41,054 nt of DNA from Candidatus Eiseniibacteriota bacterium (lineage in GTDB: Bacteria > Eisenbacteria > RBG-16-71-46 > JAFGJU01): the NCBI GenBank assembly GCA_020349905.1, contig CP070702.1, positions 1,766,624-1,807,677 on the forward strand, read 5' to 3'. A model generated the notes under the pieces. It ran no database searches and was not told where the DNA came from. It was given only the letters and a program-made list of their open reading frames with translations. Position numbers and translations under genes: made by a program. Shown in pieces: positions 30,100 through 38,138 of this stretch (position 1 is its first letter; the number at the start of each line of letters is the position of its first letter).

Positions 30100-31761
<1,662 letters not shown>

Positions 31762-31827: not shown

Positions 31828-32115
31828 CTATCCCACGATGGCGAGCACGTCGTCCTCGCGCATGATGACGTATTCTTTGCCGTCGATCTTGACTTCCGTA
31901 CCTGAATACTTGCCCATCAAGACCCTATCACCCTTCTTGAGCTCAACAGGGATGCGCTTGCCGGCTTCGTTAAGCCTGCCGCCTCCGACAGCGATGACTT
32001 CTCCCTCCTGAGGTTTCTCCTTCGCGGTGTCAGGGATGATGATGCCTCCTTTCTTGACCTCTTTCTCCTCGAGGCGCTTGACCAGGATGCGGTCTGCCAA
32101 TGGCGTCACCTTCAT
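31828..32115 (-). CDS. groS: Co-chaperonin GroES (Hsp10)
   Basis: The 95-residue protein has the GroES fold, with [10 protein letters not shown] at the N-terminus, the mobile loop [15 protein letters not shown] that binds GroEL, and the [11 protein letters not shown] strand. I choose ATG 32115: the GTG nine bases upstream (32124) forms part of the AAGGAGTG ribosome-binding site, which is 8 bases before this ATG. It is the first gene of the groES-groEL operon. Confidence 0.96.
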
Positions 32116-32191
32116 GATAGACACTCCTTTCTGAAGATGAAGTTACGCGACCAGAAATGATAACGATGGTTCATGTTCAACGCGCGCCAAC

Positions 32192-32206
32192 GCAACTAGC
32201 GTGCCA
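32192..32206 (-). promoter_or_regulatory. Sigma-54 (-24/-12) promoter upstream of groES
   Basis: On the minus strand the sequence is TGGCACG CTAG TTGC, which matches the sigma-54 core TGGCACG-N4-TTGC at every defined base, with the invariant GG and GC at correct spacing. Transcription would start near 32180, about 65 bases before the groES ATG. Confidence 0.75.
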
Positions 32207-32314
32207 TTCGTGGAGGAGTCAGAAGGTCAGAGTCGCAACTCAATATTGAAGAACGAATTGCGCAATCGGCGCGGCGCAGGGCGGACCCGGGTGCGTCGGC
32301 AGACGCGCGCTCTC

Positions 32315-32331
32315 TTTGCCCAAATGGCATC
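32315..32331. promoter_or_regulatory. Palindromic element, proximal copy (candidate enhancer site)
   Basis: TTTGCC CAAAT GGCATC shares 15 bases (TTTGCCCAAATGGCA) with the distal copy at 32438. It is a near-perfect inverted repeat about 143 bases upstream of the predicted sigma-54 transcription start, a usual enhancer distance. Confidence 0.5.
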
Positions 32332-32437
32332 TGAATGGGAGGGTCCATTACGAAAACAAGAGGGAGCAGGCGGACGATGTGAAAAGCTCCCTGGACAAAC
32401 ACGAGGCGTGGCGCGGAAAAGGGCTCAAGGGACCCGT

Positions 32438-32454
32438 TTTGCCCAAATGGCAAA
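32438..32454. promoter_or_regulatory. Palindromic element, distal copy (candidate enhancer site)
   Basis: TTTGCC CAAAT GGCAAA is a perfect 6-bp inverted repeat with a 5-base centre, about 266 bases upstream of the predicted groESL start and 123 bases from the proximal copy. The size and symmetry fit a dimeric Fis-type helix-turn-helix activator. Confidence 0.5.
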
Positions 32455-32526
32455 GCAGCGCCCGCCGACACACAGAGCCGGCCGGAGCGCGCGACGCACA
32501 ATGCGAAGTGCGCCACGTCAGGCGGC

Positions 32527-33900
32527 TCAGCCGGACCAGATGTCGTATTCCTTCATCTTTCTGTAGAGCGTCCTCAGACCGATTCCCAGGATTTCGGCTG
32601 CCTTCTGCTTGTCGTAGCCGACCGACTTCAACGTCTCTTCCATGGCGATCTTCTCGACCTCTTCCATGCTGATGCCGACCGGTATCCTGAAGAACTGCCT
32701 GCGCTTCTTGCTTGCCCTGAGATGTGCGGGAAGGTCCGCCACGTCGAGGAGCCTCTCACGGGTGCAAAAGACGACCATCCCCTCGATGCAGTTCCGCAGC
32801 TCCCGCACGTTTCCTGGCCAGTAGTGCTGCATGAACAGATCCATCGCACCGCGCGTGATGCCCTTCACCTTCTTCCCGTGCAGCTGGTTGAACTCACTGA
32901 TGAACGCGTTCACCAGGAGCGGGATGTCCTCTTTTCGTTCCCTGAGAGGCGGCACTTCTATCGTGACGACCTTGAGCCGGTAGTACAGGTCCTCCCGGAA
33001 CTTCTTCTTCCTCACGAGGGGCTCGAGTCTCTGATTGGTGGCCACGACGAGTCTGACGTCCACCTTTATTGTGTCCGAACCGCCCACTCGCTCGAACTCG
33101 CGCTCCTGCAGCATGCGAAGGAGCTTCACCTGGACCGGGGGCGTTATCTCGCTCACCTCGTCTATGAAGAGTGTCCCGCAGTCAGCCACCTCGAAGCGCC
33201 CCCTTCTCATAGAGATGGCCCCCGTGAAAGCACCTTTCTCGTGCCCGAAGAGTTCGCTCTCGAGGACTCCTTCCGAGAGGGCGGCGCAGTTGAGTTTCAC
33301 GAAGCGCTCGTCCCTTCTGGGGCTGTTCTGGTGGATGGCGAGCGCAATCAGTTCTTTCCCGGTGCCCGTCTCACCGGAGATGAGCACCGTGGCTCTGGTG
33401 GGGGCGATCTGCCGGATCTTCTCGAAGATGTCGTTCATCCCGCGCGATATGCCTATCAGGTTCTCGAAGCCGTAGCGCGAATCCAGCCGCGTGTGAAGGT
33501 CCGTTATCTGGCCCACGAGCTGCTGGTGGGAGATCCCCCGCTCTATGACCGCCTTTATCTTCTCCAGGTTGACGGGCTTCACCTGGAAATCGTAAGCACC
33601 CTGCCGCATCGCCTCGGTGGCCAGCCCCACGTCCGCGTCCTTCGTGACGGCTATTACGCACACTTCCGGGTTGCGGGCGCGCGCAATGGAGAGCAGACGC
33701 ATCCCGTCTATCCTCTGAAGCCTGAGCTCGGAAATGAGCACGTTTATGGGCTCCGAATCTATTATGTTGTAGGCCGCTTCGCCGTCTCGCGCCCAGAGCA
33801 CTTTGTAGCCGTTTTCCTCGAGGAAAGCGACGAGTCGTTTCGTGTCCGGTGTCTCGGTATCAACGACGAGCACCCTGGGTGTCTCGATCTCGAACGTCAT
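32527..33900 (-). CDS. Sigma-54-dependent response regulator (NtrC family) with Glu at the phosphoacceptor position
   Basis: The 457-residue protein has a receiver domain (8-120), an AAA+ domain (about 143-375; Walker A GETGTGKE 176-183, sigma-54 contact loop GAFTGA 223-228, Walker B TLFIDE) and a Fis-type helix-turn-helix at about 420-455 (KAAEILGIGLRTLYRKMKEY). In the receiver, the strand that should end in the phosphorylated Asp reads VLISELR, placing Glu58 there, and the second residue of the acidic pocket is Thr15 (VVDTE). Lys108 and Thr86 are kept. Glu can mimic phospho-Asp, so activity may not depend on a kinase; no kinase gene is adjacent. AGAAGGAAG precedes the ATG. It follows the RND pump gene by 49 bases and precedes the sigma-54-type groESL promoter, so either could be its target. 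Confidence 0.92.
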   Translation of the reverse strand: MTFEIETPRVLVVDTETPDTKRLVAFLEENGYKVLWARDGEAAYNIIDSEPINVLISELRLQRIDGMRLLSIARARNPEVCVIAVTKDADVGLATEAMRQGAYDFQVKPVNLEKIKAVIERGISHQQLVGQITDLHTRLDSRYGFENLIGISRGMNDIFEKIRQIAPTRATVLISGETGTGKELIALAIHQNSPRRDERFVKLNCAALSEGVLESELFGHEKGAFTGAISMRRGRFEVADCGTLFIDEVSEITPPVQVKLLRMLQEREFERVGGSDTIKVDVRLVVATNQRLEPLVRKKKFREDLYYRLKVVTIEVPPLRERKEDIPLLVNAFISEFNQLHGKKVKGITRGAMDLFMQHYWPGNVRELRNCIEGMVVFCTRERLLDVADLPAHLRASKKRRQFFRIPVGISMEEVEKIAMEETLKSVGYDKQKAAEILGIGLRTLYRKMKEYDIWSG

Positions 33901-33949: not shown

Positions 33950-36900
33950 CTAACGTGCCTCTCCGCGATGGAAGATGAACAAGAACGTTCTCTGTAGCCT
34001 CTGCCCGAAGGCGTCCACATAAGTGTACACCACCGGGACTATCACGAGGCTCAGAAGCGTAGAGAGAGTCAGACCCCCTATAACGGCGACCGCCATGGGT
34101 GTGCGCACCTCGGAGCCTTCCCCGAGACCCAGAGCCAGAGGAAGCAACCCGAGCACCGTGGTCATGGCCGTGAGCAGAATGGGCCTCAATCGGACGCAAC
34201 CCGCCTCGTAGAGGGCCTCCCGCATCTCTTTTCCCTGCGCTCTGAGGCGCTGCACGTAATCCAGCAGCACGATGGCGTTGTTGACGACTATGCCCACGAG
34301 CATGACCACCCCGATGAGCGCGTTCACCGTGAGGGTGTGCTGGGTGATGAACAGGGCAAATATCGCACCCGTGATGGCGAACGGTACGGAAAGCATGATG
34401 GTGAAAGGGTGAAGCAGCGATTCGAACAGGGCCGCCATCACCATGTAGACCAGGATGAGGGCGAGAAGGAAATCGATTGCCAAGTTCCTGAACGATTCCC
34501 TCATGTCTTCGTCTTCTCCACCATAGTCGATGGTGTAACCCTCTGGCAGGGGAAAGTTGGACAAACGCCCTCTCACGTCGGTCATGAGGCCCCTCAGGTC
34601 TCGACCGCTTCTGTTCACGCCGATCCAGACCAGACGTCTCTGGTTCTCTCGGTGAAGCTTCGCCGGGCTCTCCCCAAACTCCGTGGTCACCAGATATCGC
34701 AGAGGCACCCTGACTCCCTGGGGTGTGGAAACCACCATGCTCTCGAGGCGCTCGATCCTGTCTCTTCCGCTTTCGGCAAGCTGCACGCGGACATCTACCT
34801 CGGTCCCGTATTGCTCTATCCTCGTGGCCACCGTCCCCTGGAGCGCCGTCTTCACCATCGTGGCGAGCTGCCAGGCGTCCATACCCACCAGCGCGCTCCT
34901 CTCCCTGTCCACCACCAATCTCACTTCGGGACGCGACTCCTCGATGCTGGAAGCCGTCTCCCTTACTCCGTCTATGGTGGCCACTTCGCTCTCGATGGCC
35001 TTTGCGAGCATCCTGAGGGTCCCGTAATCATTTCCGGAAACCTTGATTTCTATGTCCCCGTAGCCGCCTCCCTGTTGCGGCCCCATCTGAACCAACGTGT
35101 ATTTAGCACCTCCCAGTCGAGTCAGCTCCTCCCTGGCCATGTCCATCGCTTCGCGCGTGCTGACGTCACGCTCTTCCTTGTCCACCAGACGAACGTACAG
35201 GGTGCCCTTGTTGGGAACCATGTCCTCGGTCATCTCGGCAGCCTCGCCACCCATCGCGAAAATGGTGGCCACGTTCGGCATCTGCAGCAGCCGCTCCTCC
35301 GCAGAATAGATCAGCCTGTCAGTCTCCTCGAGGGGCGCTCCACCGGGAAGCTCCGCGAAGACCGCGAAGATCCCGTCGTCGCTCTGAGGCATGAAGTCCG
35401 CTCCGACGGGCACGAGTAGAACCAGCCCCGCGACAAAAAGTCCTGCGGCCGAGAGAAGCACCGTTTTGCGGTGTCCAAGAGACCAGAGGAGTATTCTCTC
35501 GTAGCGCGCCCGTATGGCCCTCATGAGACCCGTGGACCTGTCCAGCCTCCGGGTCTCGGCGACGTTCATTATTTTCGAGCAAATCATAGGCACCAGGGTG
35601 AGCGCCACCACGAGTGAGGCAACCAGAGAGAAGGCCACGCTTGCGGCAAGCTGCCCGAACAGAACTTTGACAATCCCCTGCGTGAAGAGAATCGGTACGA
35701 AAACTATGACCGTGGTTAGCGTGGAGGCAGTCACCGCCATTGCCACCTGCGCAGAGCCCGCTTCCGCCGCCAGGAACCGGTCCTCGCCGCCGTGCAGTCG
35801 GCGAAAGATGTTCTCGAGGACGACGATGGAGTTGTCCACCAGCATGCCCACGCCGATGGCCAGCCCGCCGAGCGAGATGATGTTCACGGATATTCCCATG
35901 AAGTAGAGCGGAAAGAATGTGCAAACTATTGATATGGGGATGGCCAGCCCTATGATGAAGGACGAGCGATAGCTTCTCAGGAACAGCCACACCACGAAGA
36001 TGGCCAGCAGGGCGCCGTAGAGGGCCGCGTCGCGCACGTTCCGAACGGAGTCCTCTATGTACGCCGCGGAGTCAAAGAGCTCGTGGACACCCACGTCCTC
36101 CGGCAGCCGCGGGCCCAGCGACTCAAGCGCCTTGCGCACCTTCCTGGCGACGCTCACCGTGTTTGCGCCCGACTGCTTCATGACCGCTATCATGGCGCTC
36201 TCTCGGAGGTCCATGCGCGCGAAGGCGGTCTTCTCCACGTCTTCGTAGGAGACGTCCGCGATGTCCTTGAGCTTGACGATCGTGCCGCCATCCGTCTTGA
36301 GCACCAGATTCGCCACGTCGTCTATGCTCTGGAACTCGCCGGCTATCTTTACGTTGTAATCTCTCAGCTCCTGGACGACGTGTCCTGCTCCGAGGTCCGT
36401 GTCCTCTGCCCGGATGATGTTGACCACATTGCCCAGACTCATCCCGAGCGCCGCCAGCTTCGCCTGGTCAACTGCGACACGTATCTCCCTCTCTCCGCCA
36501 GCCCAGACGATAACGTAAGCGACGCCGTCCAGCTTCTCGAGCACCGGCCTTATGTCGTCTTCAGAGATGTTCTTGAGCTCTCGTTGAGTCCTGACTGCTG
36601 ACGACACGCCGTAAAAGGACACTGGCATGTCGGCAGGGTCGTACTTGAAGATGAGCGGTTTGCGCAAGTCCTCGGGCAGGAATTCGTTCTCGACCGCGAT
36701 CTCTATGTTCTCCCTTATGTCACCCATCGTCTGGTCGAGGTCGGTCCCCCATTCGAACTCCAGTTCCAGCGCAGAAACCCCGTATTGCGAAACGGAGCGG
36801 ATGTTCTTCACCCCGGAAACCTGGCTCACGGAGGCCTCCAGGGGCCTCGTGACCAGCTCTTCCATCTCTTCCGGCCCCACACCCTCGTACCTTCCGCTCA

Positions 36901-37039
36901 GGAACAGGACGGGAAAGTTGAGCTCGGGAATGAACTCCACCGGCATCTTCCGAAGCGAGATGAAACCCATCACCACAAAGACCAGCACGAACATGGAAAT
37001 TGCGACGGGTCTTCGTACGGAAAAACCTGAGAGTCTCAC
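33950..37039 (-). CDS. RND efflux pump inner-membrane subunit (HAE1/AcrB-like)
   Basis: The 1029-residue protein is of full RND length, with an N-terminal helix (about 12-29), two large periplasmic loops and the expected two sets of six helices. The proton-relay helix reads GVGMLVDNSIVVLEN, with Asp402 followed by Asn where AcrB has a second Asp; VDN is common in this branch. It should export hydrophobic compounds by proton exchange in complex with the adaptor encoded 7 bases upstream and an outer-membrane channel not present in this window. The start is GTG at 37039, supported by GGAGAGGTGA. It lies between the adaptor gene and the sigma-54 regulator gene in one likely operon. Confidence 0.93.
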   Translation of the reverse strand: MRLSGFSVRRPVAISMFVLVFVVMGFISLRKMPVEFIPELNFPVLFLSGRYEGVGPEEMEELVTRPLEASVSQVSGVKNIRSVSQYGVSALELEFEWGTDLDQTMGDIRENIEIAVENEFLPEDLRKPLIFKYDPADMPVSFYGVSSAVRTQRELKNISEDDIRPVLEKLDGVAYVIVWAGGEREIRVAVDQAKLAALGMSLGNVVNIIRAEDTDLGAGHVVQELRDYNVKIAGEFQSIDDVANLVLKTDGGTIVKLKDIADVSYEDVEKTAFARMDLRESAMIAVMKQSGANTVSVARKVRKALESLGPRLPEDVGVHELFDSAAYIEDSVRNVRDAALYGALLAIFVVWLFLRSYRSSFIIGLAIPISIVCTFFPLYFMGISVNIISLGGLAIGVGMLVDNSIVVLENIFRRLHGGEDRFLAAEAGSAQVAMAVTASTLTTVIVFVPILFTQGIVKVLFGQLAASVAFSLVASLVVALTLVPMICSKIMNVAETRRLDRSTGLMRAIRARYERILLWSLGHRKTVLLSAAGLFVAGLVLLVPVGADFMPQSDDGIFAVFAELPGGAPLEETDRLIYSAEERLLQMPNVATIFAMGGEAAEMTEDMVPNKGTLYVRLVDKEERDVSTREAMDMAREELTRLGGAKYTLVQMGPQQGGGYGDIEIKVSGNDYGTLRMLAKAIESEVATIDGVRETASSIEESRPEVRLVVDRERSALVGMDAWQLATMVKTALQGTVATRIEQYGTEVDVRVQLAESGRDRIERLESMVVSTPQGVRVPLRYLVTTEFGESPAKLHRENQRRLVWIGVNRSGRDLRGLMTDVRGRLSNFPLPEGYTIDYGGEDEDMRESFRNLAIDFLLALILVYMVMAALFESLLHPFTIMLSVPFAITGAIFALFITQHTLTVNALIGVVMLVGIVVNNAIVLLDYVQRLRAQGKEMREALYEAGCVRLRPILLTAMTTVLGLLPLALGLGEGSEVRTPMAVAVIGGLTLSTLLSLVIVPVVYTYVDAFGQRLQRTFLFIFHRGEAR

Positions 37040-37046
37040 TCGACCA

Positions 37047-38138
37047 TCACCTCTCCGAGGCTGCTGTGTCAGCGTCCGTCACCCGGACGAGACTGTTGTG
37101 TTTGAGCTGGAATTGCCCCTTCACGACCACCGAGTCCTGCTCGCTCAGACCCGAGAGCACCTCTACGGCGCCAGAGCTGACGATTCCCGTCTCCACCTTT
37201 AGCTCCCGTGCGCGCCCGTCCTTCACGACGAAGAGAGTGGCGATTCCCACTTCGCGTCTCACGGACGACTCGGGAACCACGAGCGCGTTCTCCCGAGTGT
37301 TCACCCGCACCGAGACCTTGGCGGTCATGCCCGGCTTGAGCGTGCCGCCGGGATTCTCGACCACGATCTCGGCCTCCGCTGTCCTGGTGTACTCACCCAC
37401 GAGAGGGCTGAGCGTAGAAACTCGTCCTTCGAACTGTATATCGGGGTAAGCGGAAACGGAAAGAGCGGCGGATTGGCCCACCTCTATCTTGCCCATGTCC
37501 GATTCCGGCACTCCCACCTTGACCTTCACGCTCGATATGTCCAGCAGGACGAAGTTGGGGGCTGCGGCTGCCATCGGGACGATGACCTCTCCCAGTTCGA
37601 TGTTTCTGCTGGCCACAAACCCGGAGAACGGCGCTCTCAACGTGCAATCCCTGAGCGTTTCCTCGGCAGAGACGAAGCTGGCCCTCGCCTGTTCCATCGT
37701 CAGCCGCGCGGTTTCGAGCTGATGGTCGGAGGCGATGCCGTCCTTGTGAAGTCTCTCCGTTCGCTCGGCGTCCAGTTTGGCCTTCGAAAAAGCCACCTCG
37801 GCCTGGAGGAGGTGAGCCTTCGTCTTCGTCTCATCCAGAACGGCCAGCACGTCCCCCTTGCCCACGGACCTTCCGACGTCCACCTCCACGCGGGCCACCT
37901 TGCCGCCTATCTCGAAGCTGAGGTTGGCTTCTTTCCTGCCGCGGATCTCTCCCACGAATTCGATGTTCACACTCAGGTCCATCCTCTCGGGGAGCCGGAC
38001 CTCCACAGGAACAGGCTGCTCCTCCTGGCTCTGCTCACGGGGCGAGCAACCGGGCACACAGAGAAGGACTGCCCCCACGAGCACCAGCAGGGCCGAGCGG
38101 GTCGAGACAGGACGGGACGCACTAATGAGCCTTGCCAA
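37047..38138 (-). CDS. RND periplasmic adaptor (membrane fusion) lipoprotein
   Basis: The 363-residue protein has a lipoprotein signal (hydrophobic 16-27, lipobox VPGC with Cys31), then the barrel-sandwich hybrid (NLSFEIGGKVARVEVDVGRSVGKGD), a helical hairpin (about 105-160), the returning half (LRAPFSGFVASRNIELGEV) and beta-barrel and membrane-proximal domains. It bridges the pump to an outer-membrane channel. TTG at 38138 is the start, with AAAGGAG 7 bases upstream. It is the first gene of the adaptor-pump-regulator operon. Confidence 0.92.
   Translation of the reverse strand: MARLISASRPVSTRSALLVLVGAVLLCVPGCSPREQSQEEQPVPVEVRLPERMDLSVNIEFVGEIRGRKEANLSFEIGGKVARVEVDVGRSVGKGDVLAVLDETKTKAHLLQAEVAFSKAKLDAERTERLHKDGIASDHQLETARLTMEQARASFVSAEETLRDCTLRAPFSGFVASRNIELGEVIVPMAAAAPNFVLLDISSVKVKVGVPESDMGKIEVGQSAALSVSAYPDIQFEGRVSTLSPLVGEYTRTAEAEIVVENPGGTLKPGMTAKVSVRVNTRENALVVPESSVRREVGIATLFVVKDGRARELKVETGIVSSGAVEVLSGLSEQDSVVVKGQFQLKHNSLVRVTDADTAASER

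Follow-up and report, generated by a model that had tools for sequence, protein, structure and literature searches.

In the 41,054-nucleotide stretch of a Candidatus Eiseniibacteriota genome analyzed here (referred to as the window), groESL is probably transcribed by sigma-54 RNA polymerase from a -24/-12 promoter at 32206-32192 on the minus strand, activated by the product of the adjacent enhancer-binding protein (EBP) gene through two upstream repeats, a reading to which we assign a probability of roughly 0.86. In the proposed mechanism, the Fis-type HTH of the EBP would bind the two TTGCCCAAATGGCAA enhancers (32316-32330 and 32439-32453), and the enhancer-bound protein would loop to the promoter and open it by ATP hydrolysis through an intact GAFTGA loop; EBP binding, activation and the role of 32206-32192 as the main groESL promoter are all steps that we infer from sequence. 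Control of bacterial groESL operons is usually ascribed to HrcA/CIRCE or RpoH. If a sigma-54 route equipped with its own activator is conserved, then several phyla that have few isolates or none would express an essential chaperonin from a promoter that is ATP-dependent, opens only with its activator and has no basal leak. The first-pass annotation of this DNA had proposed sigma-54 control rather than CIRCE/HrcA or sigma-32, and this proposal is supported by the exact promoter site, the presence of rpoN, the failure to find HrcA, CIRCE or RpoH, the EBP gene upstream, repeats unique to the locus and the conservation of the promoter across phyla. The features discussed are collected in Table 1.

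Table 1. Coordinates of groESL and its predicted regulatory features in the window.
Feature	Position	Strand	Remarks
groEL	30100..31734	-	
groES	31828..32115	-	ATG at 32115
Shine-Dalgarno AAAGGAG of groES	32124..32130	-	read from the sequence
Sigma-54 -24/-12 promoter, TGGCACGCTAGTTGC	32192..32206	-	exact match to core
Promoter-proximal putative enhancer (UAS), TTTGCCCAAATGGCAT on + strand	32315..32330	-	15-nt repeat at 32316-32330; kept in relatives
Distal putative enhancer (UAS), perfect inverted repeat TTTGCCCAAATGGCAAA	32438..32454	-	15-nt repeat at 32439-32453
NtrC-type EBP, 457 aa	32527..33900	-	receiver, sigma-54 AAA+ and Fis-type HTH domains

The gap upstream of groES (32116-32526) runs from the groES start codon to the stop codon of the upstream gene and contains TGGCACG-N4-TTGC exactly where it had first been reported, as the sole exact copy in the window. 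The site has the GG and GC dinucleotides at -24/-12 with the correct spacing in a TGGCAC-N5-TTGC context, and among 2000 dinucleotide shuffles of this intergenic region none gave an equal or better sigma-54 score (P about 5e-4). The 65 bases originally given as its distance from groES correspond to the 5' leader from a predicted transcription start near 32180, whereas the distance from the site to the ATG is 76 nt. A genome-wide ranking, proposed earlier as a check, was made from pattern counts; the genome, a single contig of 2.69 Mb, has seven exact copies of the site. The remaining six are likewise intergenic with respect to predicted genes, most of them shortly 5' of a same-strand gene start, and their settings include regions 5' of response-regulator genes and of a pair of genes that includes one for a FliA-like sigma factor; intergenic placement of all seven copies is what should be expected of true sigma-54 promoters. 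Sigma-54 itself, whose absence had been raised as a possible objection, is encoded in the genome (rpoN, PF04552, 216 bits). A sigma-54 site identical to that of groES including the spacer (L036:1501-1515; G000:C1:2468662-2468676) was observed ~100 bp before a gene encoding a 259-aa protein without a Pfam match.

The standard regulators of groESL were not recovered. As first noted, there is no CIRCE operator upstream of groES, where no CIRCE-like sequence with 5 or fewer mismatches in 18 positions was detected, and no HrcA gene was found in the genome; CIRCE/HrcA control was rejected on these two grounds. Control by sigma-32 was rejected since no RpoH-type sigma factor exceeded the curated cut-off (best 147.5 against 323.1 bits), a threshold set on a proteobacterial model that distant heat-shock sigmas could escape, and a sigma-70 promoter was rejected since 32050-32600 contains no sigma-70-type match. 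A sole activator-dependent promoter would be unusual for an essential gene, and a second, non-consensus promoter may be conceivable.

The EBP gene lies directly 5' of groES on the same strand and had not been picked up in the first-pass annotation. Its sigma-54 AAA+ domain has an intact Walker A motif and an intact GAFTGA (residues 223-228), the loop contacting sigma-54, and its HTH was assigned to the Fis type (PF02954, 1.7e-14). In the receiver, E58 replaces the phosphoacceptor Asp and T15 the second acidic residue; the phosphorylatable Asp and acidic pair that define a two-component response regulator are not present. The phosphoacceptor Asp is kept in 5 of 49 family rows of the alignment compared to 46 of 46 outgroup rows, and the second acidic Asp in none of the family rows. 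The phosphorylation pocket is thus degenerate throughout the family, which makes classical kinase control unlikely, and a histidine kinase is probably not what switches the EBP. In NtrC, a Glu that replaces the acceptor Asp acts as a mimic of aspartyl phosphate and is activating (Klose et al., 1993, cited in PMC4395418), and E58 could therefore mean that the EBP is active by default. The most economical reading is a constitutive activator restrained by another input; feedback of free GroEL on the EBP, as for HrcA, would be a guess, and a rather doubtful one. Same-strand genes for an RND efflux permease and adaptor (33950-38138) end 49 bp 5' of the EBP gene, which may for this reason be co-transcribed with them. 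Autoregulation of the EBP gene through a weak site at 33960-33946 (two mismatches) is not supported, as matches with two mismatches occur at close to the expected number (12 versus 10.8).

Between the EBP gene and the promoter, two identical copies of the 15-nt TTTGCCCAAATGGCA, both missed in the first pass, are located 123 bp apart. The repeats are near-palindromic, and one copy extends to a perfect inverted repeat, TTTGCC-N5-GGCAAA. Their centers lie ~142 bp (proximal) and ~265 bp (distal) 5' of the predicted start, a usual position for sigma-54 enhancers. With 2 or fewer mismatches, the enhancer sequence occurs genome-wide in just these two copies; a wider enhancer regulon in this genome was rejected, as there is no third copy at this threshold and three-mismatch matches are at background level.

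Orthologs of the EBP were recovered from Eisenbacteria and from MAGs named Poribacteria, Hydrogenedentota, Latescibacterota, Handelsmanbacteria and Gemmatimonadota, and form a single clade relative to other NtrC-type proteins (SH-aLRT 100). Eisenbacteria is the window's own phylum, since MAGs of this name recovered with the EBP came back at identical coordinates when the phylum was searched. Orthologs with 49-62% identity are found beside groESL or in its vicinity in Eisenbacteria and Poribacteria. In Eisenbacteria families f3, f4, f5 and f10 the EBP gene precedes groESL on the same strand, either immediately or separated from it by one gene, and in family f11 it is about 3 kb 5' of groESL; nearly all of these genomes have the enhancer upstream of groES. 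In f10, it is a gene without a Pfam match that separates EBP and groES (L066:4899-5636, L291:4139-5119). A sigma-54 site equivalent to that of the window was found at groES in relatives from four or more phyla. In five Eisenbacteria (G001, G002, G035, G036, and G048) no family EBP was found at the E-value threshold used, which strongly diverged copies away from groES could escape, and the enhancer was absent too; for four of them the tree places the best EBP-like matches outside the family, and in G002 there was no match. G001 and G002 belong to the same family as the window's genome and are its closest relatives (groES 84-85% identical), and they have no EBP at groES, no enhancer and no good sigma-54 site. 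This absence in the closest relatives counts against the proposed mechanism; the system appears to have been either lost in G001 and G002 or gained in the lineage of the window.

Across the family, the state of the GAFTGA loop and the sigma-54 site co-vary. In genomes whose EBP keeps GAFTGA, the best sigma-54 score 5' of groES has a median of 15.3 and is above shuffles in 27 of 29 cases, compared to a median of 4.9 and 5 of 26 cases where GAFTGA is lost (Mann-Whitney P 5e-8, an optimistic value with genomes treated as independent; the count of 5 and the test include the f5 half-site scores described below, as first counted). A kinship-aware pairs test yielded two supported independent pairs, both in the expected direction, a sample too small to reach significance, and about 3-5 changes on the tree underlie the co-variation. 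GAFTGA was lost in three main places: in f10 except G006, in the clade of G049 with f3/f4/f5, and in the pair G029 and G034. Within f10, G006 alone has GAFTGA, and it alone has a good sigma-54 site, and G029 and G034 have sigma-70-like promoters in place of the sigma-54 site. Since 45 of 47 Eisenbacteria genomes keep rpoN, loss of sigma-54 does not explain the loss of the site. Several f2/f5 Eisenbacteria have two rpoN genes (G035, G036, G037, G041, G042, and G045). The genomes that lack GAFTGA and still score for sigma-54 are G042-G045 and G049. For G042-G044 the scores seem to come from an enhancer half-site next to a sigma-70-like promoter, a reading that does not extend to G049; the f5 scores were rejected as exceptions, being mostly such half-sites beside a sigma-70-like TTGACA-N17-CATGAT.

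GAFTGA-less EBPs are usually accompanied by the enhancer, with the sigma-54 site usually gone. In some f5 members with such an EBP (L268, L269, L270, and L273), a sigma-70-like promoter has its spacer/-10 overlapped by the enhancer palindrome, at about -190 to -150 relative to groES, and this position of the enhancer inside the promoter suggests that the f5 EBP may be a repressor. Both observations are in line with an EBP that, through the repeats and independently of sigma-54, represses groESL or activates it with sigma-70; the sigma-54 site would then be secondary. For the window we regard this as improbable, given that its EBP retains GAFTGA and Walker A, that the sigma-54 site is top-ranked with the repeats located well 5' of it, and that no sigma-70-like match is present.

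The enhancer also varies with the recognition helix of the EBP. With 3 or fewer mismatches allowed, 32 of the 43 genomes with an LRTLYRK helix have it 5' of groES, compared to 1 of 10 with LSTLYRK, none of 5 in which no family EBP was found, and about 1% of shuffles; the difference between LRTLYRK and LSTLYRK (Latescibacterota group) has a Fisher P of 3e-4, uncorrected for kinship. The enhancer paired with LRTLYRK is TTGCC-N5-GGCAA, and some LSTLYRK genomes have TTGCC/GAGAA hybrids or AT-rich GAGAA-type repeats and retain near-perfect sigma-54 sites near groES. An initial search of the window's own genome gave 31 candidate EBP-related stretches, in line with a real sigma-54 promoter driven by another EBP, with the neighboring EBP serving some other target. 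We consider this quite unlikely, because across phyla the enhancer and the groES promoter go together with the neighbor's family, in which a change of recognition helix accompanies the enhancer change. Consensus matches alone are weak evidence, and a sigma-70-type consensus may not fit the window's phylum, but a chance sigma-54 match with groESL using an unrecognized housekeeping promoter has very little probability in view of the shuffles and because tens of genomes that have an orthologous EBP conserve the site at groES.

Sigma-54 transcription of groESL from the promoter at 32206-32192, activated by the neighboring EBP, can be compared with several known systems. Bradyrhizobium groESL3 reportedly has a sigma-54 promoter driven by NifA, and resembles the window in that groESL is expressed from an EBP-driven sigma-54 promoter. 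In Bradyrhizobium, however, the activator is a nitrogen-fixation regulator and this groESL is one of several copies, whereas the window has a dedicated neighboring EBP and no second groES was found in its genome. The parallel with NifA drawn in the first-pass annotation holds as an analogy only, as the EBP is not NifA (TIGR01817 389.4 bits against a cut-off of 528.85; receiver present, GAF domain absent). Its description of sigma-54 chaperonin operons as established stands, but the qualifier "rare" fits less well: Flavobacterium psychrophilum is reported to have sigma-54 sites at mapped groESL starts, with sigma-54 (SM4) promoters at groESL, dnaK, grpE and lon (PMC9723704), and sigma-54 regulons of Bacteroidota and Planctomycetota show predicted heat-shock enrichment (PMC12316311). 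These systems share with the window a groESL behind a sigma-54 promoter outside Proteobacteria; the available parts of both sources name no activator or enhancer, whereas the enhancer of the window occurs only at groESL in its genome.

HsfA of Myxococcus xanthus is phosphorylated by HsfB (PMC9109919), in contrast to the present EBP family, which has no phosphorylation pocket and groESL as its target. GAFTGA-less EBPs acting on sigma-70 promoters include NtrC of Caulobacter and Rhodobacter capsulatus and VspR (PMC10274813), and in this they resemble the derived, GAFTGA-less members of the present family. The EBP of the window differs from them in keeping GAFTGA, and where its family has lost the loop, one conserved target has lost its sigma-54 site as well. 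Other aspartate-less receivers (PMC4395418) likewise have no phosphorylatable Asp; here such a receiver is fused to a sigma-54 AAA+ activator. No description of a dedicated aspartate-less groESL EBP with its own operator was found in the open-access literature, and none for Eisenbacteria; the dedicated aspartate-less regulator and the repeated loss of sigma-54 contact look new.

More broadly, we lean slightly toward the view that an orphan, phosphorylation-independent EBP family may be a dedicated groESL regulator across several uncultured phyla, replacing HrcA/RpoH, and that at least three lineages may have independently lost the sigma-54 contact and kept the groESL operator. If true, this would be a natural series from a sigma-54 activator to a sigma-54-independent regulator, perhaps a repressor. 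As a comparative series on one target, with loss of the phosphosite, change of helix and operator, and repeated loss of GAFTGA and the sigma-54 site, the family makes it testable how an enhancer-binding activator turns into an ordinary regulator.

Regulatory elements at groES differ in arrangement among the relatives. In contrast to the window, where both enhancer copies are upstream, Eisenbacteria f11/f7 and Hydrogenedentota have a second, inverted enhancer ~155-180 bp downstream of the first, the pair flanking the sigma-54 site (L147, L152, L154, L211-L213, L219, L231, L148, L153, and L151). Extra groESL copies in G008 and G004 (L171, L172) have a near-consensus CIRCE and neither enhancer nor sigma-54 site, and the two copies within each genome are therefore probably under different control. 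In groES regions of the Hydrogenedentota type, a degenerate CIRCE-like sequence, TTGGCACTC-N9-xxxTGCTAA, is located immediately 5' of the first enhancer, about -330 to -410 from groES (L148, L149, L151, L155, L156, and L157).
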